From Acidobacteriota bacterium (GTDB lineage Bacteria > Acidobacteriota > Terriglobia > 2-12-FULL-54-10), in NCBI GenBank assembly GCA_009691245.1, contig SHUM01000041.1, positions 1 through 32,229 of the forward strand: 32,229 nucleotides of DNA, in the 5' to 3' direction. Numbering within the stretch: position 1 is the stretch's first letter; every line of letters starts with the position of its first letter. Positions 145 to 32,229 of the stretch are shown here, piece by piece. Made by a program: the position numbers and the translations under genes. The notes beneath the pieces are model-generated. The model was given only the letters and a program-made list of their open reading frames with translations, made no database searches and had not been told where the DNA came from.

Positions 145-223
145 CCGCGCGCCAATGATAAATCATATCCCGCAGCGGCCGGAAATGACAGATGTCAGTA
201 ATATATCGGGGAGGTGGTTGGCT

Positions 224-8872: not shown

Positions 8873-8914
8873 CCCGCGCCTCCTAAGTTCAAGGGCCCGC
8901 GTCCTCTTGGAACC

Positions 8915-8942
8915 ATTGTTCACATTCCCGGCTGAGTGTCAA
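8915..8942 (-). promoter_or_regulatory. Candidate sigma70-type promoter of triad operon A
   Basis: On the minus strand TTGACA (8942-8937) is followed after 16 nt by AACAAT (8920-8915, four of six matches to TATAAT). It lies about 45 nt upstream of the ankyrin start at 8872. Only the sequence match supports it. Confidence 0.4.
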
Positions 8943-9082: not shown

Positions 9083-9122
9083 CGCTTTCAAAACCGCCTC
9101 TCACAGGGCGATGAATTGTTTT

Positions 9123-11066: not shown

Positions 11067-11120
11067 AGCCAGGCTCCCTTTCTTTGTTGCTTTGCGCCTG
11101 CGCACAGGCGGTTGAATGAT

Positions 11121-15195: not shown

Positions 15196-15224
15196 ACAGC
15201 GCAATGCAACAAGGGGGACGATCG

Positions 15225-18200
15225 ATGCAAAACGCGAAATTGTCAGGCGCCTGTTTATTCATGTTGATGACTCTCTTTCACTCCTTGGGAATATCTCAAA
15301 CCACCACCGCCACTCTGACCGGCATTGTGACGGATGAGAGTGGAGCCGTGCTTCCCCAGGCGGAACTGAGAGTGACGAACACCGCCACAGGAGTTGCGCG
15401 CACCGTGGCAACCGATGCCGCGGGGAGATATTTAGTCTCCCAGCTTCCGCCGGGACCCTATGAACTGGTAGTGACCATGGCGGGCTTTGACACGCTCGCG
15501 CGCCGGGGAATTACCCTGGCGTTGGGCCAGGAGGCCAGTCTGACCCTGACCATGCGAGTAGGGTCGGTCAATGAGCAGGTTACCGTAACAGGGGAAGCGC
15601 CCGTCGTCAATACCAGCACCAGCGCGCTTACGGCGGTGATGGAACAGAAACGAATTCTGGAACTCCCGCTCAACAGCCGCGATTTTAAGATGCTGGCGCT
15701 GGTGCAGCCCGGGGTTTCCAACGGGCGCAGGACCACGGGTCAACTAGGCACGCTCAGCATATCGATGTCCGGCTCGCGGCCCGAGCAGACAGGGTATCTC
15801 CTGGACGGGACCAATATTAAAAGCGGTTCCGGGGCGCCAAGCAATGCCGCCAACGTCATGTTGGGCGTCGAGTCGGTGCAGGAATTCCAGGTGCTGACGA
15901 GCAACTACAGCGCGGAATTCGGAGGGTCCTCGGGCGGCCTAATGAGCATGATCACTAAATCGGGCACCAACCAACTGCATGGGAGTCTTTACTACAGCCT
16001 TCGCAACAGCGCTCTGGACGCGCGCGATTTCTTTGTAAAGAAGAAGGACGTATTCGCCCGCAACCAGTTTGGGGGCGCCGCGGGAGGTCCGGTCAAACGG
16101 GAACACACATTTTTCTTCTTTAATTATGAAGGATTGCTGAATCGGCAAACGAGGAGTGCGCAAGTGTTTGTTCCCGATGACAACACGCATCTGGGAAGGC
16201 TTCCCAATGGGACGCAGGTACAGGTGGCGCAGTCCATCCGCCCGTACTTGGATCTGTGGCCGCGCGCCAACGGCCCGCTGGTTTTGAACAATGGTTTGCC
16301 CACCGGGAGCGCCACCCTGAATTCCTCCGGCGCCAACCCCATCACGGTCAATTATTATCAGGGACGGGTGGACCAGCAAATCACCGATGAGCACTCGATC
16401 TTTACCCGCGTGACGTTTGACCGTGGGAGCAGGATTACGCCAGGGGCCTTCGGCGAGGCGTATTCATCCACCAACGCCAGCAGCGGCAAGAGCTACGCCA
16501 CCGTGCAGCACCAGTACATCATCACGCCACGGCTGGTGGCCAGCACTCGCATGAGTTTCAATCGCAGCACCTCTCAGGGCAGCCTGCTGCTTGGCGGGGA
16601 TTACCCGCAGAATCTTAAACTCATCCTGGACCTCCCCCCCAGCTTTACGTTTCCAGGCGTTACCCGGTGGGACCCCGCCACCGCGGGAGCGAAAGGTGCG
16701 GACCAGGTGTGGCAATTTCAGGAAACCATTGCCTATGTGCGCGGCGCGCATTCGATAAAAGCAGGAGTGGATATTCAGCAACTGAGAAGCAACTCCGCCT
16801 CCGTCAGTGATGCCTCGCTGGGTGGCAATTTTGGATGGAACACCCTGCAGGATTTTCTCACCGACGCCCGCATGTCAACTCTCGAAATCAAAGCGGGAGG
16901 AAGTTCCCACCGTAGCTTTACGCAAAAAGTTTTCGGATTGTATTTTCAAGACGACTGGACGTTCCGCCGAGGCCTTACCCTGAACCTGGGGGTGCGCTAT
17001 GAACCCTTTACGACTCCGGCGGAAAAGCATAATCGGGTATCCGTGGTGAAGGATTGGGTGCATGCCACTTCCTTTGACGTGGGAGTGCCCTTCTGGGATA
17101 ACCCGTCGCTCAAGAATTTTTCGCCGCGTGTGGGCTTTGCCTGGGATCCCACGGGCGCTGGCAAAACGGCGGTTCGCGGGGGCTTTGGCCTGTTCGATGT
17201 GCTGCTTCTGCCCCAACACTACTCCACCCCCGCCACGAAGAATCCTCCCTTCATCGCCACCATCGTAACTGTGCAAGGGAACCTTGCCACGGTACTAACG
17301 GATGTGGCGCGAGTTGCTCCGACGGTTATGACCCCGGTGATGAGTCCTGACAGCTTTATGGAAATCACGCAGTGGGACCTCGACACCAGCTATGAAATGA
17401 AGATGAACCTGTCCGTGGAACGGCAGTTGGGACAGAATCTCTCCGTGTCCGCCTCCTACATCGGCGGCAGGGGCGTCCACCTGTGGCGCAACCTTGATGT
17501 GAACACCGTTGCCAGTATCGAGGTGGACGGACGTCCGTTTGTAATTGATACCATCGCCCGCACGGACGGGTATCCAGCCTTGCTTGGTCAAGGTCCAACC
17601 CTGCGTGTCAATCCCAACACCGGCGTGGGGACGAGCCGGGCATCCGACGCGCAGTCTTTCTACAACGCGCTTCAGCTACAAGTGAAAAAGCGTTTGAGCC
17701 GGGGATTGCAGTTGGGGGGTTGGTACACCTGGTCTAAGAATGTGGATGACACCACCACCAGCACCGGCAACCTGGACTTCAATGATTTCCAGACCAGCCA
17801 GCCCTATAACCCCAAATCCGACCGTGCTCGATCGTCTCTTCATATTGGTCAGAACATGGTCGTCAATGGCGTTTATCAGATTCCATCGCTCATTCAGTCT
17901 GGTTTCGCTTCCCACCTGCTCGGCGGATGGCAGGTCTCGAGTATATTCTCGGCGTCCGACGGGGTGCCGTTTGCCACTCTTATTTCCGGGCGGAATGCTC
18001 CCGACAAGTCGCGCAGCACGGGAAGAGGACGCCCCGACTTGGTGGCCGGCCGCAGTAACCGCGACATCACTTCGGGAACTACCGCGGGTTGCACGCTGGT
18101 CAACGGAATTCCGGGTCCCTATAATGCCTCCGCATTGCCGGCAGCCCTCTCGGTGGCGCCCGGCCAGAAACTGGGAACTCCGGAGCTTTATTTCGATCCT

Positions 18201-18518
18201 TGCGCGTTCCGTTTGCCGCCCGCCGGCTTCTACGGCAATGAAGGCCGCAATATTCTGGTCGGGCCTGGACTGGTCAATTTCGATTTCAGCCTGCTCAAGA
18301 GCGTGCCGCTGGGGATTGGCGAGGGAACTCGTCTGGAATTTCGGGCGGACATCTTCAACATTTTCAATCGAACCCAATTTTCAATACCTTCCACCGCGCA
18401 GGTTACGGTTCTCAATCCCGCTCCCGCTGCGCGCTCATACATTGCAAGTGCGGGGAGAATCTCCACTACTGCAAATCCACCGAGGAGTTTACAGTTCGGG
18501 TTGAAGGTGAGTTTCTAG
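15225..18518 (+). CDS. Oar-like TonB-dependent receptor
   Basis: A 1097-residue receptor of the same family. The ATG at 15225 is favoured by AAGGGGGA 7 nt upstream and by the signal peptide that follows (MQNAKLSGACLFMLMTLFHS, then LGISQ). Domains in order are CarboxypepD_reg (ATLTGIVTDESGAVLPQAEL), plug (ELPLNSRDFKML, with NSR replacing NGR) and a barrel with the repeated NQFGGAAGGP and TFFFFNYEGL segments. It ends in SLQFGLKVSF. It lacks the Cys-rich loop of the 11848 and 26454 receptors and shares FDPCAF and RVDQQ segments with the broken receptor at 224-3494, so it belongs to the other subtype. It lies 29 nt after its neighbour and upstream of the second ankyrin triad, with a palindromic repeat in between. 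Confidence 0.92.
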   Translation: MQNAKLSGACLFMLMTLFHSLGISQTTTATLTGIVTDESGAVLPQAELRVTNTATGVARTVATDAAGRYLVSQLPPGPYELVVTMAGFDTLARRGITLALGQEASLTLTMRVGSVNEQVTVTGEAPVVNTSTSALTAVMEQKRILELPLNSRDFKMLALVQPGVSNGRRTTGQLGTLSISMSGSRPEQTGYLLDGTNIKSGSGAPSNAANVMLGVESVQEFQVLTSNYSAEFGGSSGGLMSMITKSGTNQLHGSLYYSLRNSALDARDFFVKKKDVFARNQFGGAAGGPVKREHTFFFFNYEGLLNRQTRSAQVFVPDDNTHLGRLPNGTQVQVAQSIRPYLDLWPRANGPLVLNNGLPTGSATLNSSGANPITVNYYQGRVDQQITDEHSIFTRVTFDRGSRITPGAFGEAYSSTNASSGKSYATVQHQYIITPRLVASTRMSFNRSTSQGSLLLGGDYPQNLKLILDLPPSFTFPGVTRWDPATAGAKGADQVWQFQETIAYVRGAHSIKAGVDIQQLRSNSASVSDASLGGNFGWNTLQDFLTDARMSTLEIKAGGSSHRSFTQKVFGLYFQDDWTFRRGLTLNLGVRYEPFTTPAEKHNRVSVVKDWVHATSFDVGVPFWDNPSLKNFSPRVGFAWDPTGAGKTAVRGGFGLFDVLLLPQHYSTPATKNPPFIATIVTVQGNLATVLTDVARVAPTVMTPVMSPDSFMEITQWDLDTSYEMKMNLSVERQLGQNLSVSASYIGGRGVHLWRNLDVNTVASIEVDGRPFVIDTIARTDGYPALLGQGPTLRVNPNTGVGTSRASDAQSFYNALQLQVKKRLSRGLQLGGWYTWSKNVDDTTTSTGNLDFNDFQTSQPYNPKSDRARSSLHIGQNMVVNGVYQIPSLIQSGFASHLLGGWQVSSIFSASDGVPFATLISGRNAPDKSRSTGRGRPDLVAGRSNRDITSGTTAGCTLVNGIPGPYNASALPAALSVAPGQKLGTPELYFDPCAFRLPPAGFYGNEGRNILVGPGLVNFDFSLLKSVPLGIGEGTRLEFRADIFNIFNRTQFSIPSTAQVTVLNPAPAARSYIASAGRISTTANPPRSLQFGLKVSF

Positions 18519-18812: not shown

Positions 18813-20360
18813 ATGACTCTTGCCAACCGAAATCCCCAATTTAACCGCCTGCTGGTCTTGTCCCTGTTTGCCTGCCTTGCCGGCCTTAGTCCGGCGGCGG
18901 GAAGCCCCGCGGAGGCAGGCCCTGAACTGCGCCTGATAGAGGCGGTACGAGGCAAGGATCGTAACGCGGCCATCGCCTTGCTAAAGCAGAAAGCCGATGT
19001 CAATGCGGCTTCGGCGGATGGCGCGACGGCGTTGGCCTGGGCGGCGCATTGGGATGACTTGGAATTGGCGGACCTCCTGATTCGAGGCGGCGCGAATGTG
19101 AATGCCGCCAACGTGCATGGCGTTACGTCTCTGGCGCTGGCCTGTGAGAATGGCAGCGCCGGCATGGTCGAGAAGCTGCTGAATGCCGGGTCGAATGCCA
19201 ATGCCCGGCTGGTGAAAACCGGAGTGACGCCGCTGATGACCTGCTCCCGATCCGGAAACGCCGACGCAGTGAAATTGCTGCTGCGCCACGGCGCTGATGT
19301 AAACGCCAAAGAAAGCCGACGGGGGCAGAACGCCCTGATGTGGGCGGTTGCCAACAAGCATGACAGCATTGCCGGCGCGCTGATCGAGCATCACGCGGAC
19401 TTCCGCGCTCGCTCAAAGGGCGGTATGCCGGCGCAGTATGGCAGCCTTACGCGGGAGACCGGATTTACTCCACTGCTGTTCGCAGCCAGGGCTGGTCATC
19501 TGGATTCCGCCAAAATATTGTTGGACGCAGGCGCGAATGTGAACGAGGCCACGCCGGAGGACGGCAACGCGCTGGTGATCGCCGCGGCCGGCGGCCACGA
19601 AGCGCTGGCCTTGTTTCTGCTGGGACGGGGAGCCGATCCCAAGGCAGCCGACGCCTTTGGCGTTTCCGCATTGCACTACGCGGTGCGGCGAGGAATTCTG
19701 GAGCTGACCGGCTTCGAGTTTTATGCCGAGCGCCTGCCTCCCCCCAATATGCACGAGCTGGCGCGGACGTTGCTGGCCCGCGGGGCCGATCCCAATGCTC
19801 AGATTCGGGCCAATTTTCCGTCGAACTCGCGATACCATGAAGGACAGTTACTCAGCCTGGTCGGCGCGACACCGCTCTTACTAGCGGCTCATACCGCCGA
19901 TACCGCTCTCCTGCGGATTTTTTTGGATCGCGGCGCGGACCCGAAGCTGGCTACCAAGGCCGGAGACGTGCCGCTGTTGCTGGCGGCTGGCTTGGTTCGA
20001 GATCCTTCCCTTGCCACGGCTGAACAGAATGCCCAAGCGCTCGAGTCGGTGAAACTGCTGACGCAGCGAGGAGTGGAACTGAATCATGCCAACGGCCGGG
20101 GCCAAACCGCTCTGCATGCCGCCGCGGGCATGGGAGCTGATGCCCTGATTCAGTTTTTGGTCGAGCAGGGCGCCGATGTGAATGTGAAGAACAAATCGGG
20201 GGAGACGCCCTGGAGCATTGCCATGGCTATGTGCCCAGCCGAAGGAACGACCAATGCCTGCGGCGCTTACGTCATCCGCAAGGAAACCGCGGAACTGCTG
20301 CGGAAGCTTGGCGCCCAACCTGGCGCCCCCGCTCCCATGCAGGAGTACTTCCAGCAGTAG
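18813..20360 (+). CDS. Exported ankyrin-repeat protein, triad copy B
   Basis: A 515-residue ankyrin-repeat protein. Residues 1-31 are a signal peptide (hydrophobic LLVLSLFACLAGLSPAAG). Repeats run through the rest: GATALAWAAHWDDLELADLL, then GVTPLMTCSRSGNADAVKLL, TGFTPLLFAARAGHLDSAKI, NALVIAAAGGHEALALFLLG and GQTALHAAAGMGADALIQFL. The first repeat keeps the HWDDLE sequence of copy A, so the genes are true paralogues. An insertion around residues 285-330 (FEFYAERLPPPNM) interrupts the array, in the region where copy A has its RIWKEPAKGQR segment. A weak GAGG precedes the ATG. The cytochrome gene follows after a gap of 55 nt rather than the 4-nt overlap of copy A. Confidence 0.9.
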   Translation: MTLANRNPQFNRLLVLSLFACLAGLSPAAGSPAEAGPELRLIEAVRGKDRNAAIALLKQKADVNAASADGATALAWAAHWDDLELADLLIRGGANVNAANVHGVTSLALACENGSAGMVEKLLNAGSNANARLVKTGVTPLMTCSRSGNADAVKLLLRHGADVNAKESRRGQNALMWAVANKHDSIAGALIEHHADFRARSKGGMPAQYGSLTRETGFTPLLFAARAGHLDSAKILLDAGANVNEATPEDGNALVIAAAGGHEALALFLLGRGADPKAADAFGVSALHYAVRRGILELTGFEFYAERLPPPNMHELARTLLARGADPNAQIRANFPSNSRYHEGQLLSLVGATPLLLAAHTADTALLRIFLDRGADPKLATKAGDVPLLLAAGLVRDPSLATAEQNAQALESVKLLTQRGVELNHANGRGQTALHAAAGMGADALIQFLVEQGADVNVKNKSGETPWSIAMAMCPAEGTTNACGAYVIRKETAELLRKLGAQPGAPAPMQEYFQQ

Positions 20361-20415
20361 AGCAGGCAATTCACCACTATGGTCTATTAAAGGGAAACTC
20401 CGGGGGTTGGCGACG

Positions 20416-22833
20416 ATGGGGATGATGTTCCGGGTAAGGGCTGGACTGGCGCTGGTCTTTGTGGGCTTCCTGCAACTGAATGCGGCTCCGCAGGCACCAG
20501 TGCCCTCGCCACCCGCGAGGCCTCTGGCGCAGCACTCCGCCACAGTCAGCCGTTACTGCGTTACCTGCCATAACGAAAGGCTCAAGACCGCCGGGCTGGC
20601 CTTGGACCGGATTGATCTCGGTAATGTACCCGCCGCCGCCGAGGCATGGGAAAAGGTGATTCGGAAATTGCGCACGGGGGCCATGCCTCCGACTGGCGCG
20701 CCTCGCCCTCCGGCGGACTTCTACAATTCCCTGGCGACTTACCTGGAAACGGAATTGGACCTCGCCGCCGCAGCTCATCCCCATCCCGGCCGGCCCGTCA
20801 TCCGCCGCATTAATCGCACTGAATATGCCAATGCGGTGCGCGACCTGCTGGGGCTGGAGCTGCGCGTCGAGGATATGCTTCCCGCCGATGAAATCAGTTC
20901 AGGCTTCGACAACATCGCCAGCGTGCTCACCGTCTCGCCGATGCTGATGGAACGCTATATGCTGGCGGCGGGGAAGATCAGCAACCTGGCATTGGGGGTT
21001 TCCTCCGCCCAGCCCGCCGAGGAAACTTACACCATCTCCAAACTGGTGATGCAGGAGGATCGCGCCGGGGAAGACCTGTCCTTTGGTTCGCGCGGTGGAA
21101 TTGCGGTTCGTCACCACTTCCCGCGGGATGGCCAGTATTCCATCAAGATTCAGTTGCAGAGGAATTTCAGGGGATACATCCGTGGTCTGGGCGAGCCGCA
21201 CCAGCTTGACCTCACCCTGGATGGCGCTCGCATCCAAGCGCTCACTATCGGAGGGGAGCGCCGGGGAAAATCCGCGCCCATCTTCTCCTCGGCCAGCATG
21301 GGGGAGACAGCACAGGAAGACTACGAGCATACCGCCGATGAAGAGTTGGAGTTTCGCTTCGCGGCCCAAGCGGGTCCTCACCAGGTTGCCGTGGCTTTTG
21401 TGAATGAGGAAGTGGAGTCGGAGGGCCCGTTGTGGCCAGCCATGACTCCAATCGAGTACGAGCAATACAAGGGGGGCGACCCCGGCGTGGCCAGCGTGGT
21501 GATCGGCGGCCCCTACGATGCCAAGGGGCCGGGAGAGACTCCCAGCCGCAAGAAGATACTGGCTTGCCAGCCTACCGGGAACTCCGAGGCCTGCGCGCGG
21601 AACATTCTCACCACGCTCGCGCGGCGCGCCTATCGGCGACCCGCAACTCCGGAAGACATGGACGTGCTGCTGAGTTTCTTCCGCCTCGGCTATCGATCGA
21701 GAGACTTCGACGTGGGCATGGCGGCAGCCATCGAACGTATTCTGGCGGGACCGGAATTTCTCTTTCGCATCGAGCGCGATCCCGGCCATCTCCCGCCCGG
21801 CACGGCGTATCCGATCAGCGACCTGGAGCTGGCCACGCGCTTGTCATTCTTTCTGTGGAGCAGCATTCCGGACGACGAGTTGCTGAATCTGGCCGAGCGC
21901 GGCAGGCTGCGTGATCCGGCGGAGCTGGAGGGGCAGGTGCGCCGCATGATGGCCGATGCCAAGTCGAAGGCGCTCGTCGAGAATTTCGCGGGCCAGTGGC
22001 TTTCCCTGCGAAACCTAAACTCCGTGATCCCGGACCCGCTGGTATTTCCTGAGTTCGACGAGAATCTGCGCCGCGCATTTCAGCAGGAGACCGGGTTGTT
22101 TTTCGAGAGCATCGTGCGCGAGGATCGCGGCGTCTCCGATCTGCTGAACGCGGACTATACCTTCGTGAATGAACGGCTGGCCCGGCATTATGGAATTCCC
22201 AATGTCTATGGCAGCCACTTCCGGCGCGTTTCGCTGAGCGACGAAACCAGGAGGGGATTGCTGGGCAAGGGCAGCGTCTTGATGGCGACCTCGTATCCCA
22301 ACCGGACCTCTCCCGTTACACGCGGCAAATGGGTGCTGGAAAACATTCTCGGCACGCCGCCGCCACCGCCTCCTCCCGATGTGCCATCGCTTGCGGATAA
22401 TGGCCGTGGCGGGAAGTTGCTCTCCATGCGCGAGCGGATGGAGGAGCATCGCAAGAATCCGGCCTGCGCGGGGTGCCACAAGCTGATGGACCCGCTGGGC
22501 TTCGCGCTGGAAAATTTCGACGGCCTCGGCAAGTGGCGCACCCGCGATGGCGACAGCTCCATCGATCCTTCCGGGGCATTGCCGGACGGCACGCAGTTTC
22601 AGGGGCCCGCGGGAATGCGCAAGGCTTTGTTGAGTCTGCGCCAGCAGTTTCTTGCCACATTCACTGAACGGCTTCTTGCCTATGCTCTCGGCCGGGAAGC
22701 CGACTATCACGATGCGCCCGCGCTGCGTGGCATTCTTCGCACCGCCGCTCCCAGCGACTATCGCTGGTCCGCGCTGGTTATTGGGATAATCAAGAGCACG
22801 CCGTTTCAAATGAGGAGGTCGCCGGAACTATGA
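20416..22833 (+). CDS. DUF1592-type exported c-type cytochrome, copy B
   Basis: Paralogue of the protein at 4911-7223 with the same order: signal peptide (FRVRAGLALVFVGFLQLNAA), CVTCH (residues 48-52), MPP segment, DUF1587 (IRRINRTEYANAVRDLL), a predicted beta-rich insert that is longer than in copy A, DUF1595/1592 (LARRAYRRP; ISDLELATRLSFFLWSSIPD), proline run, DUF1588 with CAGCH (684-688, then KLMDPLGFALENFDGLG) and DUF1585. Starts at 20416, 20422 and 20425 are all possible; the frame is open back to 20218 but that extension overlaps the ankyrin gene and would hide the signal peptide. The extra acidic stretch EDYEHTADEELEF is absent from copy A. The stop TGA overlaps the ATG of the DUF1552 gene. 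Confidence 0.9.
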   Translation: MGMMFRVRAGLALVFVGFLQLNAAPQAPVPSPPARPLAQHSATVSRYCVTCHNERLKTAGLALDRIDLGNVPAAAEAWEKVIRKLRTGAMPPTGAPRPPADFYNSLATYLETELDLAAAAHPHPGRPVIRRINRTEYANAVRDLLGLELRVEDMLPADEISSGFDNIASVLTVSPMLMERYMLAAGKISNLALGVSSAQPAEETYTISKLVMQEDRAGEDLSFGSRGGIAVRHHFPRDGQYSIKIQLQRNFRGYIRGLGEPHQLDLTLDGARIQALTIGGERRGKSAPIFSSASMGETAQEDYEHTADEELEFRFAAQAGPHQVAVAFVNEEVESEGPLWPAMTPIEYEQYKGGDPGVASVVIGGPYDAKGPGETPSRKKILACQPTGNSEACARNILTTLARRAYRRPATPEDMDVLLSFFRLGYRSRDFDVGMAAAIERILAGPEFLFRIERDPGHLPPGTAYPISDLELATRLSFFLWSSIPDDELLNLAERGRLRDPAELEGQVRRMMADAKSKALVENFAGQWLSLRNLNSVIPDPLVFPEFDENLRRAFQQETGLFFESIVREDRGVSDLLNADYTFVNERLARHYGIPNVYGSHFRRVSLSDETRRGLLGKGSVLMATSYPNRTSPVTRGKWVLENILGTPPPPPPPDVPSLADNGRGGKLLSMRERMEEHRKNPACAGCHKLMDPLGFALENFDGLGKWRTRDGDSSIDPSGALPDGTQFQGPAGMRKALLSLRQQFLATFTERLLAYALGREADYHDAPALRGILRTAAPSDYRWSALVIGIIKSTPFQMRRSPEL

Positions 22834-24176
22834 TGATCTTCAAGAAATCGATTCCCCGCCGCGCGTTTCTGGCCGGCATGGGAACTGCTTTGGCCTTGCC
22901 GCTGCTGGACGGGATGATCCCCGCCCTGGCCAGCGCGCAGAATCCCGCTGCCCAACCGGTTCGCCGCCTGGCGTTTGTCTATGTTCCGAACGGAATGATC
23001 ATGGAAAAGTGGACTCCCGAAAAGGAAGGGACCACGTTCGACCTGCCTCCCATTTTGGAGCCGCTGACTCCCTTTCGGGACCAGATGCGGATCCTTAGCG
23101 GGCTGAACCAAAATGCGGCGGCGGCGCTGCCCGGCGAAGGCGAGCAGGCGCCGCACGAGCGCGCCGGGGCCACCTACCTCACCGCCGTTCACCCCCGGCG
23201 GGAAGGGCATGTGGGAGTGTCAGTGGACCAGGTGGCGGCGCAATCTCTGGGTCAGCAGACCCAACTGGCGTCGCTGGAGTTGAGCCTGGACCCCTCCACC
23301 ATCTCCGGCCAATGCGAAAAGGGCTGGAGTTGCGCCTACGTTCATACCCTTTCATGGCGCACGCCGACGACTCCTAATCCCACGGAAAATCAGCCGCGCG
23401 CGGTGTTCGAGCGCTTGTTCGGCGATAGCCAGAGCACGGACCCGGCGGAGCGGCGCGCCCGTTTGGAAAGGCGGCGAAGCATTCTGGACTCCGTAACCCA
23501 GGCGGCGGGGCGATTGTCCGCAGGCCTGGCCTCTGCTGACCGCGCCAAGCTGGCCGAGTACATGGATTCAGTCCGTGATGTCGAGCGGAGGATCGTGCGG
23601 GCGGAGGAACAATCCTCCCGCGAACTGCCGGAGTTTGACCGGCCGGTGGGCGCTCCCGCCCGGTTTGACGAATATGCGAAGTTGATGTTCGACCTGCAGT
23701 TGCTGGCTTTCCAATGTGATTTCACGCGAGTGTCCACATTCATGATGGGTCCGGAGCAGGGTGGCCGGACCTTCCGGGAAATCGGCGTGGCCGACGCGCA
23801 TCACCCGCTATCCCATCACCAGAATGATCCGTCGAAGATCGCCAAGGTGGTCAAGATTGACATCTATCACTCGCAGATGCTCGCACATTTCCTGGAGCGG
23901 CTGCGTTCCACCGCGGATGGCGCAGGCTCGTTGCTGGACAATATGATGATTGTCTACGGCAGTGGCATCAGCGACGGCAATAGCCATTCCACAAAAGAAC
24001 TTCCCGTCGCGTTGCTGGGCGGTGGTTCAGGTCAGCTAAAGGGAAACCACCACCTCCGCTATCCAAAAGGCACGCCAATGGCCAACTTGTACGTAACTCT
24101 CCTGAACAAATTAGAGGTTGCCATTGATAAATTCGGCGATAGCACCGGAAGCCTCGATCTAACTTCAATCGCGTAA
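22830..24176 (+). CDS. DUF1552 (HXXSHH) exported protein, triad copy B
   Basis: A 448-residue DUF1552 family protein. The N-terminus (MMIFKKSIPRRAFLAGMG) is a twin-arginine-like export signal. The family motif is canonical, HHPLSHH at about 324-330. LPLLDGMIPA, MIVYGSGISDGN and KFGDSTG are shared with copy A, while the middle (a QNAAAALPGEGEQAPHERA insert, shorter elsewhere) diverges. The start lies in an ATGA overlap with the cytochrome stop, with AGGAGG about 11 nt upstream, indicating translational coupling. Together with the cytochrome it forms the core of triad B. The gene converges on the amidohydrolase at 24383; the 206 nt between them hold only a weak GAGTG/CACTC stem and no clear terminator. 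Confidence 0.9.
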   Translation: MMIFKKSIPRRAFLAGMGTALALPLLDGMIPALASAQNPAAQPVRRLAFVYVPNGMIMEKWTPEKEGTTFDLPPILEPLTPFRDQMRILSGLNQNAAAALPGEGEQAPHERAGATYLTAVHPRREGHVGVSVDQVAAQSLGQQTQLASLELSLDPSTISGQCEKGWSCAYVHTLSWRTPTTPNPTENQPRAVFERLFGDSQSTDPAERRARLERRRSILDSVTQAAGRLSAGLASADRAKLAEYMDSVRDVERRIVRAEEQSSRELPEFDRPVGAPARFDEYAKLMFDLQLLAFQCDFTRVSTFMMGPEQGGRTFREIGVADAHHPLSHHQNDPSKIAKVVKIDIYHSQMLAHFLERLRSTADGAGSLLDNMMIVYGSGISDGNSHSTKELPVALLGGGSGQLKGNHHLRYPKGTPMANLYVTLLNKLEVAIDKFGDSTGSLDLTSIA

Positions 24177-24382: not shown

Positions 24383-26260
24383 TTATTTCCAGCCTTCGGG
24401 AACTTTCTCCGTCCAGGTGGTGGCGCCCACCGGCGCCATTCCGATCTCGGTAGCCAGCGAGCGCTTCAGGTGGACTACTTTTCCGCCCACCGCCGTCATC
24501 AAGACCTGAATTGACGGAATGTCGTCCTCTGGAATGGTCAAGAAATCCTTGTCCAGCACGATGAAATCGGCAAACTTGCCGGTCTCCAGCGTGCCCATCA
24601 CTTTCTCCTTCAGAAAGTAATATCCGGCCCAGCGCGTCAGCGCCTTCAACTGAATCTCGCGCGTGGTGCGTTGATCCGGGCCGTAAACCTTTTTGTCGAA
24701 GTCGTTGTAACGGTTCATGCCTTTGAGAATGAAGAAAAACATCTTGTAGGGCATGGGCCGGTCGATCTCGACCGTATTCATCACCTGCGCATCCACCAGC
24801 GACTTGCGCGGCACCACCCAACTGGTGTATTCCACGCCGTACTTGCGCGCCATCAGCGCCGCGCCGCGCTGCGGCTCCCACAGCACGGTATTGATCTGGC
24901 TGACCATCATGCCCAGGTTTTTGAGGCGCGGAATCTGCGCTGGCCGCGGCGCGCCGGAGCTGTGGTCGAAGGCGTGACGTTTGGCGCGAATCTGATCGAG
25001 GGTGAAACCGGCGCGTTTGCTGGCGGCGTCGATAGCGTCCATATAGTTGTCGATGTCCTTGTCGCCACCCGTGTGCATGGTGGCCACGCGCAGGCCGCTC
25101 TCGATGATGCGCTCGATGATCTCGCGGCCGCGCATGCCGGGGTCCAGATTGCAGCGGTTCGGCCCGCTACCATAGCTGAAATCCTTCTTGAACTCATCCC
25201 ACTCTGGACGCGGCTCGATGGTCATGCAGTCGCTGCCGGATTCATCCCAGGCCCCGATCAGCCACAGATGGTCCGAGCCGGAACCCACCATACCGGACAG
25301 ATAGCGCAGCAAATCGACATTCCAGTCCGGCCCGATATAGCCCCAGGCGAAGCGGCCCGGCATCTCGCCGCGCTGATCGAGATATTGCAGCGCTTGATAG
25401 TTGTGGAAGGCATAGGGCGCAGAGCCAAAGCCGGTTACGCCGTAACTGGCCCACAGCTCCATCTCGGCGCCGATGATGCGCGCCAGCAGGTCCGTGCGGC
25501 CTTTGAAATAAAGGTCCGGCTCCATGGGCCGGTTGAAGCCGTAGCCTTTCTTCTCCTGCTCACTGATGGTGCCCAAGCCGGGATGCACCTTGGCCAATTC
25601 ATCGAGCGCCTTCTGATTCACCACCGAAGTAATAAAACCGTTCTTGATCTTCACGGGATTATTGGGCGCGACCTGGTCCAGATATTCCTTCTTGATGCTG
25701 TTGGGAAACAGCACGGCCATCTCCTTGGCCCACTCATATTCCGGCCCCCAGTTGAAGCTGAGCAAAATGGGCTGGCCGGGTTTCGCTTTCTTAAGCGCGT
25801 CCTGCAGCATGGGTTCAAATAGCGCCATCTGCTGCTTGGGAGTGACGCTGGGCATCCAGCGATGGATCATGAAATCATCGTTGGGCAGCACGTGAGTGAT
25901 GGCGCGCGGCTCCTGAAATGCCCAGTCGGTGGGATGCTCGTGGGTGAGGGTAAAGCTGGGCAGCACGGTCCGCCCCTTCAGGTCGATGCGTCGGGTCTGC
26001 GGCCCGGCCAGCGCCAGCATGTCGGCGTTGGAGCCGAGCGCCAGCACTTTGCCGTCGCGCACCGCCATCGCCTGCGCAATGGTTCCCAACTGCGAAGTGA
26101 AGGTCGCGTCATCCACGGTAACGATCTTCCCGTTATGCAGGATCATCTGCGCATAGCCCAACTTGGCCATGACGTTGGCCTGCTGCGCCACCAACCAGGT
26201 CGGCGACGTGGCCGCCATCAACAACAGCATGAACATCTTCACTCGACAGATTCGATTCAT
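24383..26260 (-). CDS. Exported amidohydrolase (Amidohydrolase_3/YtcJ-like)
   Basis: A 625-residue paralogue of the 9123-11066 enzyme. The ATG at 26260 has GGGAGGAG 5 to 6 nt upstream and gives a signal peptide (VKMFMLLLMAATSPTWLVAQ). The open frame extends to 26449, but that part runs through a palindromic repeat and is not coding. The HEH motif is at His107/His109 (PSFTLTHEHP); other likely metal ligands are in MHTGGDKD and KRHAFDHSSG. The C-terminal segment LETGKFADFIVLDKDFLTIP is standard for the family. It follows a receptor gene on the same strand (gap 193 nt with a palindrome), suggesting uptake and hydrolysis of the same compound. Substrate unknown. Confidence 0.9.
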   Translation of the reverse strand: MNRICRVKMFMLLLMAATSPTWLVAQQANVMAKLGYAQMILHNGKIVTVDDATFTSQLGTIAQAMAVRDGKVLALGSNADMLALAGPQTRRIDLKGRTVLPSFTLTHEHPTDWAFQEPRAITHVLPNDDFMIHRWMPSVTPKQQMALFEPMLQDALKKAKPGQPILLSFNWGPEYEWAKEMAVLFPNSIKKEYLDQVAPNNPVKIKNGFITSVVNQKALDELAKVHPGLGTISEQEKKGYGFNRPMEPDLYFKGRTDLLARIIGAEMELWASYGVTGFGSAPYAFHNYQALQYLDQRGEMPGRFAWGYIGPDWNVDLLRYLSGMVGSGSDHLWLIGAWDESGSDCMTIEPRPEWDEFKKDFSYGSGPNRCNLDPGMRGREIIERIIESGLRVATMHTGGDKDIDNYMDAIDAASKRAGFTLDQIRAKRHAFDHSSGAPRPAQIPRLKNLGMMVSQINTVLWEPQRGAALMARKYGVEYTSWVVPRKSLVDAQVMNTVEIDRPMPYKMFFFILKGMNRYNDFDKKVYGPDQRTTREIQLKALTRWAGYYFLKEKVMGTLETGKFADFIVLDKDFLTIPEDDIPSIQVLMTAVGGKVVHLKRSLATEIGMAPVGATTWTEKVPEGWK

Positions 26261-26352
26261 AGCACTCCTCCCGAACTTGAAAGTAATTAGTCTCACGATT
26301 TCATACCGCGCTTCATCCTCTGGCGTAGCAGTTTCCTGGGAAATTGTTGGGG

Positions 26353-26428
26353 TGTCATTCCGAGCAAAGCGAGGAATCTGCTTTTTATATCGCCGTATTG
26401 AGAAAAAAGCGGAATCCTCGGAATGACA
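26353..26428. repeat. Palindromic intergenic repeat (GTCATTCCGAG type)
   Basis: TGTCATTCCGAG (26353-26364) pairs exactly with CTCGGAATGACA (26417-26428). The stem continues imperfectly through GGAATC-GCTTTTT against AAAAAAGC-GGAATC. The sequence with GTCATTCCGAGC-AAGCGAGGAATC is a widely dispersed intergenic repeat type that yields spurious RFARND-like peptides. It lies between the receptor stop (26454) and the amidohydrolase start (26260) and could fold in the transcript and modulate read-through. Confidence 0.8.
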
Positions 26429-26453
26429 TCTCGCCGTATTTTCTGGCAAACTC

Positions 26454-29400
26454 TTAGAACTCGAACTTCAGCGCCAATTGAATCTGCCGCGAAGTGCCGA
26501 TGGTCTTGGTGATGCGCCCGCCGGGCGCCTCGGACGAAGGTAGCCCCGTGGTCTCGAAGACCAGCGAACTGCTCGGCCCCGCGTAGTTCGGATGGTTCGG
26601 CAGATTGAAGAACTCGGCGCGTAACTGTAGGTTCCTGCCCTCGCGGATCTGGACCATCTTGAAGATGGAGAAGTCCACCTTTTTCTGGCCTGGCCCGTCC
26701 AGTGTGTTGCGTCCGACATTGCCGAAATATCCCGGCGCCACGGTCTGGAACTGAGTCTCATCGAAGTAATGGTTCACATCGCCGATCACCGGGTTGTTGT
26801 TGCCGCCCGGCTTCAGCAGCGGCCGCACCACGCAGGTGCGGCAGAAGTTGGTAACCGCATAGCCCGGCCCGGTCAGGGAAATGGGCAACCCTGTGCGCAC
26901 CGAGACGATGCCGTTCACCTGCCAGCCGCCCAGCACCTTATTGAGCATGTCACTCATGCTATTGCCGAAAGTCTTGCCCTGGCCCAAGGGAAGCTCGTAG
27001 GTGTAGTTGAAAGTCATGTTGTGCCGAACGTCCTGATCCAGCCGGCTCATGTCATAGGATTTGTAGTTCCACAGGTTGTTGATGTTCTGCCCGCTGCCTA
27101 GGCCAGAATCGCCTCCCGTCTCGGCGTTTTTTGTGCCGATTGGACCATTGCCCAAATTCTTCGACCACGTATAGGAGACGGTGAATTCCAGGCCCTGACT
27201 AAAGCGCTTTTGCAGGCGCGTTTGCAGCGCGTGATAGAAGCTGTCGGCGGCGCTGGCGTAGGTGCGCGTGGAATCAAGGGCAGGATTGATCGACGGAGCC
27301 CCCGCCGGAGTGAATTCCCTCCCGGTGGGGTCAACTTGGACTGCTGGCTGCACTTGGTTCAGCACGCCAACCAAGTTGGTGCCGCGGTTGCCGATATAAG
27401 TGGCGCGGGCCACCCATTTGGCTCCCACCTGCCGCTCCAAGCCGAAATTCCATTGATACCCGGCGGGTTGCTTGAAATCCGGGTTGATGATCAGCACCTG
27501 CCGCGTGCCTGCAGCCGCATTTACGCCCGCCATCGGATTCGGCCAGCGGAGGGGGGAAGCCGCGACGTTGCGCAACGACAGCCGATCCGCCTGGGGCGGA
27601 TAGTAGATGGCCAATTGGAACAGATACTCGAGCGGAATCTCCTTGAAGGTTCCAAAGCCGCCGCGCACGCTGGTCTTGGCATCCGGGCTCCAGGCCAGCC
27701 CGAATCGCGGCGCGAAATCCTTCAAGCCATCGCGTATATTGAACAGGGCGTTCTTGCCCAGTTGCGTCCAGTCCCGGTCGCGCAACACATCGTTGAAGGT
27801 CGCGGCCTTGCCGTTCACCTCCCACGGCGAAGTCACCTTTTCCCAGCGCAGGCCCAAGTTGAGCGTCAGATTGTCGAGCATTTTGAAATCATCCTGCACG
27901 TACCAAGCCGTGTAGGTCTGCCGCCAGCCGCGGTAGGAATCCGGCCGCTGCCCCACGCCGGTGGAGGTGATGTTGTTCAAGCCCCGGCAATCGACGGCTG
28001 CGCCGGTGCAGTAGGGGGCGACGCCGGAGGTGAGGAAGTTCTTGGTGGGAGCGAACCAACTGGTGGCGGCATGTCCCCACACCGTGGCGAGCACGTTTTC
28101 CTGGAAGCGCCGCACGTCAATGCCCATATCCAGCGAATGCCGGCCGCGCGTTACGCGCATCGAGTCAAACCAACTGAAAGTGTTGTCCGTAAAGCGCAGC
28201 GGGTCGTCTAGATCGGCGCCGTTGGTGGTGCTGCCTGGGCCGTTGTGGCCCCCAGGAATCGCCACTCCGGGAATACCCCAGGGACCGCCCCAACGCACTC
28301 CGGGGATGATCTCGAGCTGGCGCGGCAAACCGGGATAATCATCCGCGTCGGTGCGTTTGGTCTCAGCGCCGTCAATGCACATGCACTGATTGTTGTCATT
28401 GCGCGCAAAGCCGATCCGCGCCGAATTCAGCACGGTGGGCGAGACGATGTGCGTCCACTCGATGGTGAGATAACTGTATTTGCCCCAATCATTGGTGGCC
28501 GTATGGAGATTCTTGGAGGCATCCAGGAATTGCGCGTCGGGCAGCTCCTTGCTGCTCATATCAAAGACGCCGCGGCCAAACAGGGTGTCATTTTGGCCCA
28601 GCGTCTGATCGACCCGAAACATATAATAGTTTTCGCGCCCCGGCTGCTTGCGGCTCCCCTGGTAGTCCTGCAAACCATCATTCAGGTATTTCCCCGTACC
28701 CCGCGGGATGATGTTAATCACTGGGACTATGTCGGGATTCACGCCCAGCGGCAGCGTCTCCCGGATGATGCGCTCGGCGCGGCTGCAATTGCGCAGCGTC
28801 CCGGGACAGCCGGTGATCTGCCCGGCCCGCGACTCATCGCTCAACACGGTGCCGAAGTCCGTGGTGCCCAGCACCTGCCGCAGCCCTTCAAAGGAGAAAA
28901 AGTAAAAAGTACTGTCTTTCACGATCGGTCCGCCGACGGTGCCCCCAAATTGATTGCGCTTGAAGGGCGGAATGGGATCGTCGGGCAGGTCGAAGAAATT
29001 TTTGGCGTCCAGCATTTCATTGCGCAGGAACTCGAACACGCTGCCATGGATGGCGTTGGTTCCAGAGCGCGTAACGGCGTTCACCACGCCGCCCACGGCG
29101 CGACCGTATTGCGCGCCGTAATTATTTTGCAGCACGGTGAACTCGCGGATGGTGTCCACGCCGAGGGTTTGGTTCATCACGCTGACCGGTGCCACGTTGG
29201 AGTAGGGGCTGACGATGTCGGTGCCGTCCAGCAGGTAGGAGCTCTGCTGCGGCCGCGCCCCGTTCAGGATAATGCGACCGCCGCCTTGAAAAACGCCGGC
29301 GGGAATTCCAAGGTCAGAGATGGCACCGGGCTGGATGGCGGTAAGATCGGTGAAGCTGCGTCCATTCAGCGGCAGCTCGCGCATTTGCTGCTCCGTAACC

Positions 29401-29810
29401 AGATCGGCCACGGTGGAGTTGGTGGTTTCCAGCAGCGGCGCTTCTCCCGTAACCGTAACCTGCTCGGATACGGCTCCCACTTGCAGCGCAAAATCCACCA
29501 CAGCCTGTCGCCCCACGGTCAGCTCCACGCCACTGCGGACCACGGACTGAAATCCTGCGTTCGTGGCCGTTATCTCATAGTTGCCCAGACCCAGTTGCGA
29601 TGCCGTATACCGTCCGGCTGAGTCGCTGATGGCGCTGCGAGTGATTCCCGTTTCCAGATTCCTGATGGTGAGATTCACATCGGGAATGACCGCGCCGGTG
29701 GAATCTTTAACTGTCCCTGAAATCGTTCCGAGAGTTACTTGAGCTCCGCCTGTGCCTAAAGCAGCAAGCAGGAAAACTACAACCATGAAAAACGTCCCCG
29801 TCTTTTGCAT
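26454..29810 (-). CDS. Oar-like TonB-dependent receptor
   Basis: An 1118-residue outer-membrane receptor. The ATG at 29810 has GAGGAG 8 nt upstream; residues 1-24 are the signal peptide (FFMVVVFLLAALGTGGAQ). CarboxypepD_reg (GTISGTVKDSTGAVIPDVNL), plug (ELPLNGRSFTDL) and barrel follow, ending RQIQLALKFEF. It is the close paralogue of the 11848-15195 receptor: the segment after the plug (APLLETTNSTVADLVTE), the Cys pair QCMCIDG, the IPGGHNGPG loop, CVVRPLLKPGG and FFNLPNHPNY all correspond. The VGRQA Gln here is CAG, the codon mutated to TAG in the broken receptor. It is probably the first gene of a two-gene unit with the amidohydrolase at 24383-26260. Confidence 0.93.
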   Translation of the reverse strand: MQKTGTFFMVVVFLLAALGTGGAQVTLGTISGTVKDSTGAVIPDVNLTIRNLETGITRSAISDSAGRYTASQLGLGNYEITATNAGFQSVVRSGVELTVGRQAVVDFALQVGAVSEQVTVTGEAPLLETTNSTVADLVTEQQMRELPLNGRSFTDLTAIQPGAISDLGIPAGVFQGGGRIILNGARPQQSSYLLDGTDIVSPYSNVAPVSVMNQTLGVDTIREFTVLQNNYGAQYGRAVGGVVNAVTRSGTNAIHGSVFEFLRNEMLDAKNFFDLPDDPIPPFKRNQFGGTVGGPIVKDSTFYFFSFEGLRQVLGTTDFGTVLSDESRAGQITGCPGTLRNCSRAERIIRETLPLGVNPDIVPVINIIPRGTGKYLNDGLQDYQGSRKQPGRENYYMFRVDQTLGQNDTLFGRGVFDMSSKELPDAQFLDASKNLHTATNDWGKYSYLTIEWTHIVSPTVLNSARIGFARNDNNQCMCIDGAETKRTDADDYPGLPRQLEIIPGVRWGGPWGIPGVAIPGGHNGPGSTTNGADLDDPLRFTDNTFSWFDSMRVTRGRHSLDMGIDVRRFQENVLATVWGHAATSWFAPTKNFLTSGVAPYCTGAAVDCRGLNNITSTGVGQRPDSYRGWRQTYTAWYVQDDFKMLDNLTLNLGLRWEKVTSPWEVNGKAATFNDVLRDRDWTQLGKNALFNIRDGLKDFAPRFGLAWSPDAKTSVRGGFGTFKEIPLEYLFQLAIYYPPQADRLSLRNVAASPLRWPNPMAGVNAAAGTRQVLIINPDFKQPAGYQWNFGLERQVGAKWVARATYIGNRGTNLVGVLNQVQPAVQVDPTGREFTPAGAPSINPALDSTRTYASAADSFYHALQTRLQKRFSQGLEFTVSYTWSKNLGNGPIGTKNAETGGDSGLGSGQNINNLWNYKSYDMSRLDQDVRHNMTFNYTYELPLGQGKTFGNSMSDMLNKVLGGWQVNGIVSVRTGLPISLTGPGYAVTNFCRTCVVRPLLKPGGNNNPVIGDVNHYFDETQFQTVAPGYFGNVGRNTLDGPGQKKVDFSIFKMVQIREGRNLQLRAEFFNLPNHPNYAGPSSSLVFETTGLPSSEAPGGRITKTIGTSRQIQLALKFEF

Positions 29811-30106: not shown

Positions 30107-30721
30107 CTAATGCGTAAAAAAGAAGCAGGCGACCATTCCGCCCTCACCCTCGGCGAGCACTTCCACTTGCGCGCCAAAGGCGCGAACTTCGCTGGCCGGT
30201 ATTCCGCTTCCCGCCCGCACGGCGGAAGCATTGACGCGAAGTGAGATGTTGGCGGGAACCGCGGTCTCCAAGATATTGAAGGAAACGTAACTGAGCAGGC
30301 CGGAGGGAATCGCCTTGTCTGTTCCGCTTGGGACGGCCGCATGGAGCGTGATCGTGGTCATTTCCAACCCCTGATCATTTTTCCCGTCTTTGGATTCCGC
30401 AGTGAGCTCTACATTGCCAAGTTCCGCGGCCGCACCCGGATCGATCTTCTGAAATTTGAGATTCTTGCTGACAAAGTTAATTGTCAGACTTGCCTGCCCC
30501 ACTGATTCCTGTTCAGCCGGCGTGAAATAAATAGGCACAACAACCGATGCGCCGGGAGAGCCGGTTGCGCTCCCGAGCGTCAACCGAGTGGTCTTCGCTG
30601 GATCTGTCGGAGGGCGCCCCTCGGCAGCATCCTGACCCAAAAGATGAACGGAGGATGCCGCAAACAGAAGGATTACTGGAAACATTCGCGGGATAGACCA
30701 AAATTGTGGAAGATTGATCAT
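30107..30721 (-). CDS. Exported cohesin-like domain protein
   Basis: A protein of about 204 residues with an N-terminal hydrophobic signal (FPVILLFAASSVHLLGQ). One beta-rich domain follows, with the look of a cohesin-type module: LTLGSATGSPGASVVVPIYF at its start, ASLTINFVSKNLKFQKIDPG in the middle, and GLLSYVSFNILETAVPANIS towards the end. In the family such domains either bind dockerins or act as stand-alone exported modules; no dockerin is seen in the window. It ends in an unusual ACFFFTH tail. The ATG at 30721 is chosen; a GTG at 30736 and an ATG at 30685 are also possible, and none has a strong ribosome site. The family call rests on overall pattern, not a signature motif. Confidence 0.65.
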   Translation of the reverse strand: MINLPQFWSIPRMFPVILLFAASSVHLLGQDAAEGRPPTDPAKTTRLTLGSATGSPGASVVVPIYFTPAEQESVGQASLTINFVSKNLKFQKIDPGAAAELGNVELTAESKDGKNDQGLEMTTITLHAAVPSGTDKAIPSGLLSYVSFNILETAVPANISLRVNASAVRAGSGIPASEVRAFGAQVEVLAEGEGGMVACFFFTH

Positions 30722-30848
30722 CTGTCTAGTAGACACCTTTCCCTGACTGGAGTCTGAGAGCGGAGTCGCCCAGCTCCCGATTCTCCGGGAATTTCATATT
30801 CTTCCTTCGCTCGGCTGCGAGTATACACCTAGTTGGTCTTCGACGCGA

Positions 30849-31220
30849 GCCTTTCTATTTCCAGTTTCGGCCCGGCAAATGCTGTTGTCCCAGATGGTGC
30901 GGCAGGGTCCCTGGAACGATTGTGGCAATCTGCCGGGGCTGATCGAGGCGGCCAGCCGACAAACGCGGATCGGCTTGTCGCCGGTCGATGCCGAATTCGA
31001 TAGTGAGCGAAACCATACGTATCTCCGTCAGCAACTCCGCGCGAAAAGCATCATCCCTGCCAAGCGGGGCAAGAAGACTTGGCGTATCCACGGCGTTCGG
31101 GCCGAGATGCGACACGCTTTCCTCTGCCGACAATACTCCAAGCGTGCTTTAGTGGAAACGGTCTTCTCGACCATCAAACGCAAACTCTCCTCCCGCGCGC
31201 CGGGCGAGGATGTCCGTTAA
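30849..31220 (+). pseudogene. Truncated DDE transposase (IS4/IS5-type)
   Basis: The frame holds the second half of a DDE transposase: VDAEFDSERNHTYLRQQL with the second catalytic Asp, IIPAKRGKKTWRIHG, and ALVETVFSTIKRKLSSRAPG with the catalytic Glu. The N-terminal part with the first Asp is absent: nothing like it is seen before 30849. The C-terminus stops at TAA 31218-31220 just after SRAPG, where family members normally continue for about 25 residues. The break lies 7 nt before the left end of the IS5-like remnant at 31227, so that insertion may have cut it. Not functional. Confidence 0.75.
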
Positions 31221-31226
31221 ATCGTA

Positions 31227-31633
31227 GAACTGGTTTCAAAATTCGATACAGCCTCAAATGAGGTACTTACGTTGAAACGCCGCCATCGGCTTGAGTGGTG
31301 GCATGAGACTCACCGAGCAGCAATGGACAGCGATGGAGAATTTATTGCCGGAGTCCGGGCGACCGGCGGCGGATCATCCCCGATCGCGGCTACGACTGCG
31401 ACGACGCGGCATCGAGCTGATTGCGCCGTACCGCCGGAATAACCGAACCAAACGGTACCAGGACGGTCGCAAGCTGCAGCGCTACCGGCGGCACTGGAAA
31501 ATCGAGCGCACCTTCGCTTGGTTCAGTAATTTCCGGCGGCTCCAAGTGCGGCAAGACCGCATCCTGTGCGTCTTTCAGGGCTTCCGTCATATGGCGTGCC
31601 TCTTAATCACGCTGAGGTATTTTGAACCAGTTC
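31227..31633 (+). mobile_element. Internally deleted IS5-like element with terminal inverted repeats
   Basis: The left end GAACTGGTTTCAAAAT (31227-31242) matches the reverse complement of the right end (GAACTGGTTCAAAAT, 31633-31619) apart from one T. Between them lie the N-terminal and C-terminal parts of an IS5-family transposase with the middle missing. At about 407 bp the element is roughly half the usual length for the family. Flanking 3-mers (GTA on the left, TTA on the right) do not match, so no target duplication is claimed. Confidence 0.7.
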
Positions 31634-31674
31634 TTAGATACTCTGATTGGACCGCGAGCCAGAGATGTTGTTGA
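31303..31674 (+). pseudogene. IS5-family transposase with internal deletion
   Basis: The ATG at 31303 starts the typical IS5-family N-terminus (MRLTEQQWTAMENLLPE) and the frame soon jumps to the C-terminal domain (RGIELIAPYRRNNRTKRYQD, then RHWKIERTFAWFSNFRRLQV). That segment carries the catalytic Glu. Most of the region between, including the first Asp, is lost. The second-Asp motif survives out of frame: 31382-31402 reads DRGYDCD in the +1 frame. At least two deletions are therefore needed, one large and one small. The frame passes the right inverted repeat (31619-31633) and ends at 31674. The product cannot be an active transposase. Confidence 0.75.
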
Positions 31675-31700: not shown

Positions 31701-31742
31701 GTTTTGATACGGAATACTCAATGTACCGGGGGTTTTGATACG
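31701..31742. repeat. Direct repeat pair GTTTTGATACG
   Basis: GTTTTGATACG occurs at 31701-31711 and again at 31732-31742, in the same orientation and 31 bp apart. The pair lies between the IS5-like remnant and the tRNA fragment. Function unknown; integrase arm sites are one possibility. Confidence 0.55.
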
Positions 31743-31788: not shown

Positions 31789-31838
31789 TGGTCGGGGCGA
31801 TAGGATTTGAACCTACGACCCCCTGCGCCCAAGGCAGG
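31789..31838 (-). other. 3' part of tRNA-Pro(TGG), probable attachment site
   Basis: The minus strand from 31838 reads a complete anticodon arm (stem CCTGC/GCAGG, loop CTTGGGC, anticodon TGG), a 5-nt variable region, a T-arm (GTAGG-TTCAAAT-CCTAT) and the acceptor 3' strand CGCCCCG followed by A and an encoded CCA (31791-31789). The 5' acceptor strand and D-arm are missing: the sequence above 31840 does not match them. A tRNA cut at the base of the anticodon arm with an intact 3' end is the typical footprint of tyrosine-recombinase integration (attL or attR). In that model the chromosome lies to the left and the element to the right. Confidence 0.75.
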
Positions 31839-32054
31839 TCACGGACAGGATGCAATTTAGCCTGTTTTCAACTACTTGACAATGAAGGAGATGATGTCCG
31901 CCCGTTGAAACTTACGGAACCCAATTGAAGTGGGAGGAAAATTACAGCTACATTTCTATCTACAATTTCGTCCCATCACGGAGAGCGATACATCAACTTA
32001 CGCTTCCGATTTCAATCGAACCTCTCGGCTAACCTCGGATCTCGTCGCCACTGT

Positions 32055-32229
32055 TCACAACTCTGGATTGATTACTGATAGACCCTCCGCAAGCGCCACC
32101 TCGGTCATGATCTTGTCGGCTGCCAATAGAGCGGCCAACGAACTGCGCCGATGGACGTCCAACGCCACAGCCAATTGAAGCGCATCCAAAGTCCGAAGGC
32201 TCTTCACGATTCCATATCGAGTGAGTAGC
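32055..32229 (-). CDS. PIN-domain protein (VapC-like), C-terminal part
   Basis: The minus strand is open from the window edge to TGA at 32057-32055, giving 57 residues. They contain SLRTLDALQLAVALDVHRR, then AADKIMTEVALAEGLSVINP and EL at the end. The LRTLDALQLA segment with its Asp and the AADKIMTEVA-EGLSVINP ending are characteristic of PIN-domain ribonucleases, the toxin class of VapBC systems. The N-terminal catalytic Asp and any partner antitoxin lie beyond the window. It sits 217 nt from the tRNA fragment on the presumed element side, consistent with a toxin-antitoxin pair on an integrated island. Confidence 0.75.
   Translation of the reverse strand, partial: LLTRYGIVKSLRTLDALQLAVALDVHRRSSLAALLAADKIMTEVALAEGLSVINPEL

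Follow-up and report, generated by a model that had tools for sequence, protein, structure and literature searches.

A tRNA-Pro(TGG) remnant at a contig end of an uncultivated acidobacterium as the probable junction of two stacked integrated elements

The window analysed here, a stretch of 32,229 nt, is the entire contig C41 of an acidobacterial draft genome comprising 96 contigs and 3.43 Mb. Near its right end lies part of a tRNA-Pro(TGG) gene, which raises the question of whether this fragment is the scar of an inserted element and, if so, on which side of it the element lies. In the following, contigs of this genome are denoted by C and the genomes of relatives by G, and the features of the window are listed in Table 1.

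The tRNA-Pro(TGG) fragment and its identical copies

On the minus strand, positions 31838 to 31789 are the 3' 50 nt of a tRNA-Pro(TGG) and read CCTGC-CTTGGGC-GCAGG-GGGTC-GTAGGTTCAAATCCTAT-CGCCCCG-A-CCA, which comprises the anticodon arm with the TGG in its loop, the T arm, the 3' acceptor strand, the discriminator and the encoded CCA. The tRNA lacks its 5' half, the cut falling at the first base of the anticodon stem. ARAGORN called no tRNA in the window, and the Rfam tRNA model aligned to positions 31843-31798, with the D-arm region missing, at 22.4 bits, which is under the gathering score. The match of the fragment to tRNA-Pro(TGG) is far beyond chance. The genome holds one complete tRNA-Pro(TGG) gene (C58:1812-1888), the 3' 50 nt of which match the window fragment exactly, and another 50-nt fragment of the same sequence (C1:2651-2700), which is cut at the same base. 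The initial annotation had described a tRNA-Pro(TGG) cut at the base of the anticodon arm with its CCA kept, and had proposed searching for a complete gene with the same 3' 50 nt; the copies on C58 and C1 bear out the description, and the gene on C58 is the one sought. Its view of the fragment as a remnant of site-specific integration also holds. The window fragment is an attachment-site remnant, the scar of a site-specific DNA insertion.

All three copies (C41, C1 and C58) have the T-stem variant GTAGG/CCTAT, whereas the tRNA-Pro(TGG) genes displayed for the relatives carry other T stems. This shared variant points to a recent common origin of the three copies, and the 50-nt fragments on C41 and C1 are, judged by their sequence, undecayed. 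The terminator-like sequence GCGGGCC[A/G]TTTCCGGCC[C/T]GC follows both the C1 fragment and the complete gene on C58. Partial tRNA genes made by integration are reported to be a widely occurring source of tRNA gene fragments (PMC9897764). The fragment described here is likewise a partial tRNA gene produced by integration, but differs from those fragments in that two identical ones bound a proposed island and in being too short for a call by ARAGORN.

Further tRNA-Pro remnants were observed elsewhere. Contig C65 of the relative G004 carries, at 9148-9197, a diverged 50-nt tRNA-Pro 3' fragment with the same cut base; a DDE_Tnp_1_4 transposase gene is 84 nt away. On C51, a 57-nt 3' fragment of tRNA-Pro(CGG) (23544-23600), identical to the complete gene, is located 190 nt past a tRNA-Ser(GGA) and 30 nt ahead of a putative IS end; it is a second tRNA insertion scar in this genome, with a cut point that differs from that of the tRNA-Pro(TGG) fragments. 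The sequence GGTGCTTCCKCCATCCAGTGTTGTT beside the C51 fragment was considered as an attachment motif and rejected, as it is probably an IS terminal repeat, with its flanks judged by eye. Its copies (C1:490, C27:26776, C51:23634, C81:11371, C38:10086 and C95:6462) have at most 2 mismatches in a 21-nt core.

Table 1. Features of the window (contig C41), with strand and basis of assignment
Feature	Position	Strand	Basis or remark
Amidohydrolase C-terminus (47 aa), cut by contig end	1..143	+	N-terminus of same subfamily at C1:1-203
TonB-dependent/Oar-like receptor, cargo, frame broken	155..3494	+	by reading
DUF1552-type protein, cargo	3565..4980	-	by reading; 57-75% identical to G002:C76 proteins
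DUF1592/PSD planctomycete-cytochrome-type protein, cargo	4911..7223	-	paralogue of 20218-22833, which has Pfam hits
Ankyrin-repeat protein, cargo	7220..8923	-	by reading; 72% identical to G002:C76:41201-42757
Amidohydrolase, cargo	9123..11105	-	ORF reading and paralogue comparison
Two TonB-dependent/Oar-like receptors, cargo	11752..18518	+	by reading
Ankyrin, DUF1592/PSD and DUF1552 genes, second cargo block	18813..24176	+	collinear with part of G002:C41, 67-72% nt
Amidohydrolase and TonB-dependent receptor, cargo	24383..29810	-	ORF reading and paralogue comparison
Cohesin-domain secreted protein, cargo	30107..30736	-	Pfam PF00963, E=8e-6
Second transposase fragment (DDE_Tnp_1)	30879..31220	+	Pfam, E=2e-5
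Internally deleted IS relic, terminal inverted repeats GAACTGGTT(T)CAAAAT	31226..31640	.	DDE_Tnp fragment 31291-31674; ends read from sequence
CGTATCAAAAC, putative integrase arm-type site 2	31701..31711	-	31 nt from site 1
CGTATCAAAAC, putative integrase arm-type site 1 (P' arm)	31732..31742	-	1 of 3 genomic occurrences
tRNA-Pro(TGG) 3' 50 nt, attachment core/junction	31789..31838	-	identity to C58:1812-1888 and C1:2651-2700
Anticodon arm CCTGC-CTTGGGC-GCAGG, probable core-binding and crossover region	31822..31838	-	sequence reading; crossover position presumed
C-terminal 57 aa of PIN-domain (VapC-like) protein, proposed right-hand element	32055..32228	-	runs off contig

Direction of the element and its continuation on a second contig

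The initial annotation had placed the element to the right of the fragment. The cut geometry allows this and the DNA there is unusual, but the arm-type repeats described below lie on the left and have their partner on C1. The 11-mer CGTATCAAAAC occurs only three times in the 3.43-Mb genome. Two copies follow the CCA of the window fragment by 46 and 77 nt and thus lie left (3') of it, and the third is at C1:2530-2540, 110 nt before the C1 fragment on its 5' side, where it is directly preceded by the near copy CGTATCAATAC (C1:2519-2529); all of them have the same orientation. A 14-mer, CGTATCAAAACCCC (C1:2530-2543), is common to the 3' flank of the window fragment and the 5' flank of the C1 fragment, and both copies are oriented alike with respect to the tRNA. 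The motif was first spotted by eye, after the fact. In 20,000 simulated pairs, a shared 14-mer had P=2e-4 per flank pair, or about 0.008 over 42 comparisons.

In attachment sites of the lambda type, the arm-type integrase sites on the P' and P arms are helically spaced direct repeats. The distance of the putative arm sites found here from the anticodon loop is about 93-135 bp, and their spacing is one and three helical turns. They resemble a lambda-type site, in which both arms carry direct repeats about 60-140 bp from the core; the likeness is one of layout alone and presupposes the proposed pairing of C41 with C1. No arm site was found behind the tRNA-Pro ends of GTDB contigs. Matches to the arm sites in viral contigs were discarded, as they look like chance; the match to the pair sits inside a phage coding sequence. 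Since the repeats are located left of the window fragment and their partner on the inner side of the C1 fragment, the best-supported element fills the window itself. The window fragment would then be the left core and the C1 fragment the right core of an element, referred to here as E2, which would run leftwards through the window. The island beginning at about 31839 and lying mostly outside the window, as initially annotated, is thereby replaced by an element that would occupy positions 1-31788 and continue to C1:2650.

The connection between the two contigs is suggested by a split gene. C41 starts with the C-terminus of an amidohydrolase, and C1:1-203 (minus strand) encodes the N-terminal 67 aa of an amidohydrolase, in an orientation that fits the order reversed C41, gap, C1. 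The genome contains about 45 amidohydrolase paralogues. C41:1-149 is identical to C61:1-149, which represents an assembly fork at k=149, and the same overlap length of 149 nt was also found at other contig joins (C77/C53 and C52/C36). The shared 149-nt start indicates that a repeated (collapsed) amidohydrolase body precedes both C41 and C61. The C-terminus of C41/C61 and the N-terminus of C1 fall into one close subclade (C41:24386, C41:9144, C3:59697 and C27:26991), and of the incomplete paralogues located at the ends of contigs, only C1:1-203 was found to supply an N-terminus of this subclade; C93 was rejected as the partner of C41, since its amidohydrolase N-terminus belongs to another subclade. 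The most likely continuation of C1 is therefore C41 or C61. The two are equal as partners of C1 on sequence alone, and the arm sites together with the direct repeats pick C41. No contig spans C41 and C1, and we infer a join across a gap of about 1.5 kb inside the amidohydrolase gene, which would give E2 a length of about 36 kb (31.8 kb + ~1.5 kb + 2.65 kb).

Two stacked elements and the competing explanations

We consider it likely, although by no means certain, that the window fragment is a recombined tRNA-Pro(TGG) integration core joining two stacked elements, namely E2, from the window to C1:2650, and E1, to the right of 31839. In this model, a tyrosine integrase would recombine in the anticodon arm of the tRNA, and the incoming element would restore the gene with the copy of the tRNA 3' half that it brings, displacing the old 3' half to the far end. 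E2 would have entered first, occupying the window from 31788 leftwards and then crossing the gap to C1:2650, and would end at the second 50-nt fragment. E1 would later have entered the restored tRNA and carried off its 5' half, which would now be on C58, so that the bare 50-nt core would remain between E1 and E2 as a chimeric internal attachment site. The missing 5' half at the window and the complete gene on C58 make it most likely that E1 entered after E2. The order of insertion, the class of the integrase and E1 itself are what we infer, and it counts against the model that E1 is represented by 390 nt only.

These 390 nt, which reach from the core to the contig end at 32229 and have a GC content of 50% (vs. 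59%), are probably part of a second element. The 57-aa PIN fragment encoded there does not by itself reach significance against Pfam (PIN_5, E=0.049). Its relatives share 37-65% identity with it, and two full-length relatives that were scanned matched PIN (PF01850) with E=1.7e-11 and 5.8e-6. The FxDTSA motif typical of PIN proteins stands at the start of the full-length homologues, one of which has an AF2212-like ORF directly upstream, in the usual position of the antitoxin. The fragment resembles VapC-type PIN toxins with an AF2212-like antitoxin in that its C-terminus aligns to full-length PIN proteins, but here the C-terminus stands alone, with the catalytic N-terminal part and any antitoxin beyond the contig. 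The PIN toxin of the initial annotation is thus confirmed only in part, as a C-terminus with VapC-type homologues; since the gene continues past 32229, to speak of an intact toxin is not warranted. In the congener G001 (C128), a PIN remnant like this one (90% over 84 nt) occurs beside DUF1592-type genes and a transposase-like gene. The PIN fragment had no match among plasmids, and no other contig of the genome shares sequence with the right end of C41.

The window fragment could alternatively be the far end (attR) of a single island lying wholly to the right, from C58 to 31839, so that the window would be ordinary chromosome. Cut geometry permits this, the complete tRNA is on another contig, and both the 50% GC of the right-hand DNA (vs. 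59%) and its PIN gene end, which is also found beside DUF1592-type genes in G001:C128, would suit such an island. We regard it as unlikely, however, as it accounts neither for the second identical fragment on C1 nor for the unique repeats to the left, and as 20 kb of the window cargo, unlike the flanking core DNA, have no close match in the congener. That the fragments on C1 and C41 are the far ends of two separate islands at one tRNA, with the arm-like repeats reflecting related integrases, appears distinctly improbable. The same cut base would suggest one integrase specificity, and elements commonly occur in tandem at a single site (PMC5704250), but the repeats are on opposite sides of the two fragments, as the P' and P arms of a single element would be, and the split amidohydrolase fits a join of C41 and C1. 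An origin of the fragments from duplication or IS-mediated rearrangement, without any site-specific integration, is very improbable, even though IS relics directly adjoin the window fragment and the diverged 50-nt fragment in G004 adjoins a DDE-transposase gene. The two fragments here and the one in G004 run from the first base of the anticodon stem to the 3' end of the tRNA, and random breakage would not be expected to give such shared end points.

With regard to known systems, the stacked arrangement is comparable to that of CIMEs, elements without integration or transfer genes that are flanked by att cores and whose accretion gives a chimeric internal att site (PMC5704250). E2 may be a decayed CIME-like island that has retained both cores and the putative arm sites, and no known integrase or transfer genes. 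No PF00589 match was found in the window or in C1:1-2650, with about 1.5 kb of E2 being unassembled, and there were no integration, transfer or conjugation-relic genes among the ORFs read in the known E2 sequence. The four PF00589 matches in the genome are XerC-like, XerD-like, a truncated integrase at a tRNA-Ala and one fragment; none of them adjoins any copy of tRNA-Pro(TGG), and the integrase that the initial annotation expected there was thus not located. The truncated tyrosine integrase (C27:25875-26630) has 251 aa, lacks its N-terminus and overlaps with its 3' end the opposite-strand tRNA-Ala(CGC) at 25869-25944. With CIMEs in tandem accretion, E2 would share the flanking att cores, the lack of integrase and transfer genes in its known sequence and the contact with another (proposed) element through a chimeric internal att site (PMC5704250). 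It differs from them in that its neighbour is unassembled, its ends are on different contigs and an ICE or IME ancestry is not apparent. The acidobacterial host and the cargo of TonB/DUF1592 type also distinguish it from known CIMEs. Islands targeted to tRNA genes are assigned to classes according to integrase sublocation, and those of tyrosine integrases acting in the anticodon arm belong here. E2 resembles the latter in its direct repeats from the anticodon stem to the CCA, the restored tRNA and putative arm sites on both sides, but no integrase gene was located with it. The proposed arrangement is of a known kind, a decayed tRNA island with tandem accretion, and would constitute a new example in a little-studied, uncultivated acidobacterial group.

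Comparison with relatives and the cargo of the window

The core DNA flanking the proposed island (C1:3376-12000 and C58:3191-7555) is 93-94% identical to the congener G001, whereas 20 kb of the window cargo have only matches of about 66-71% there. In other genera of the family, this cargo reaches up to 79% (G006) and 70-77% (G002), partly in collinear order. As the G001 genome is only 82% complete, absence of the cargo from it is unproven, and a search via fabI and PPX synteny revealed no intact empty tRNA-Pro(TGG) site. On the C58 side, the G001 contig ends in IS-like sequence. On the C1 side, synteny with G001 (93.6%) stops abruptly at C1:3376 (G001:C19 4240), at the end of a SixA-like gene and 675 nt beyond the C1 fragment, and beyond this break G001 has a RelE-like toxin gene instead. 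The true chromosomal edge may therefore lie further out, and the SixA-like gene and the terminator beside the C1 fragment may be variable themselves.

In G002 (C76), the 3' side of a tRNA-Pro(TGG) opens into 45 kb of the cargo gene families of the window. This stretch begins with a recombinase zinc-ribbon remnant and includes a CMD protein that is 45% identical to the one at C1:925-2175. Cargo beside the tRNA is supportive but not decisive, since these families are multi-copy across the genomes. G001:C8 encodes a complete tyrosine integrase of 370 aa (12187-13299; PF00589, E=4.9e-25), 48 nt from a tRNA-Leu(TAA) (13347-13435), with DUF1552/DUF1592-type genes behind it, so that in this genus an integrase next to a tRNA gene is indeed present near cargo of this kind; no far-end repeat was found within the stretch read. 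The XRE-fabI locus, which borders the tRNA on C58, is without tRNA-Pro in G002:C70 and G004:C31 and has a fumarylacetoacetase-like gene beside it in both, so that the tRNA locus differs between the genera.

Large sets of paralogues in the acidobacterium Solibacter usitatus have been argued to stem from ancient acquisition and duplication (PMC3174227). In the genome analysed here and in its relatives, TonB receptors, DUF1552/DUF1592 proteins and amidohydrolases form large sets of paralogues. If the proposed E2 is right, one block of such paralogues sits in a recently inserted tRNA island with a recognisable attachment site and putative arm sites, which would be a concrete and testable vehicle for the movement of these blocks. 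It is a rather doubtful extension that, in this acidobacterial family, islands without integrases, delimited solely by tRNA cores and arm sites, are moved by the integrases of other elements, and that traffic at tRNA-Pro(TGG) is a main route between genera for the very large paralogue sets of TonB-receptor, DUF1552, DUF1592 and amidohydrolase genes. The locus also illustrates that a tRNA remnant can be misread in its direction when a single contig is viewed.

Within the window, 3565-11105 and 18813-26449 are two diverged copies of one gene set (DUF1552, DUF1592, ankyrin and amidohydrolase), the order of which is roughly mirrored. The receptor at 155-3494 is split into three ORFs, either as a pseudogene or through assembly indels.
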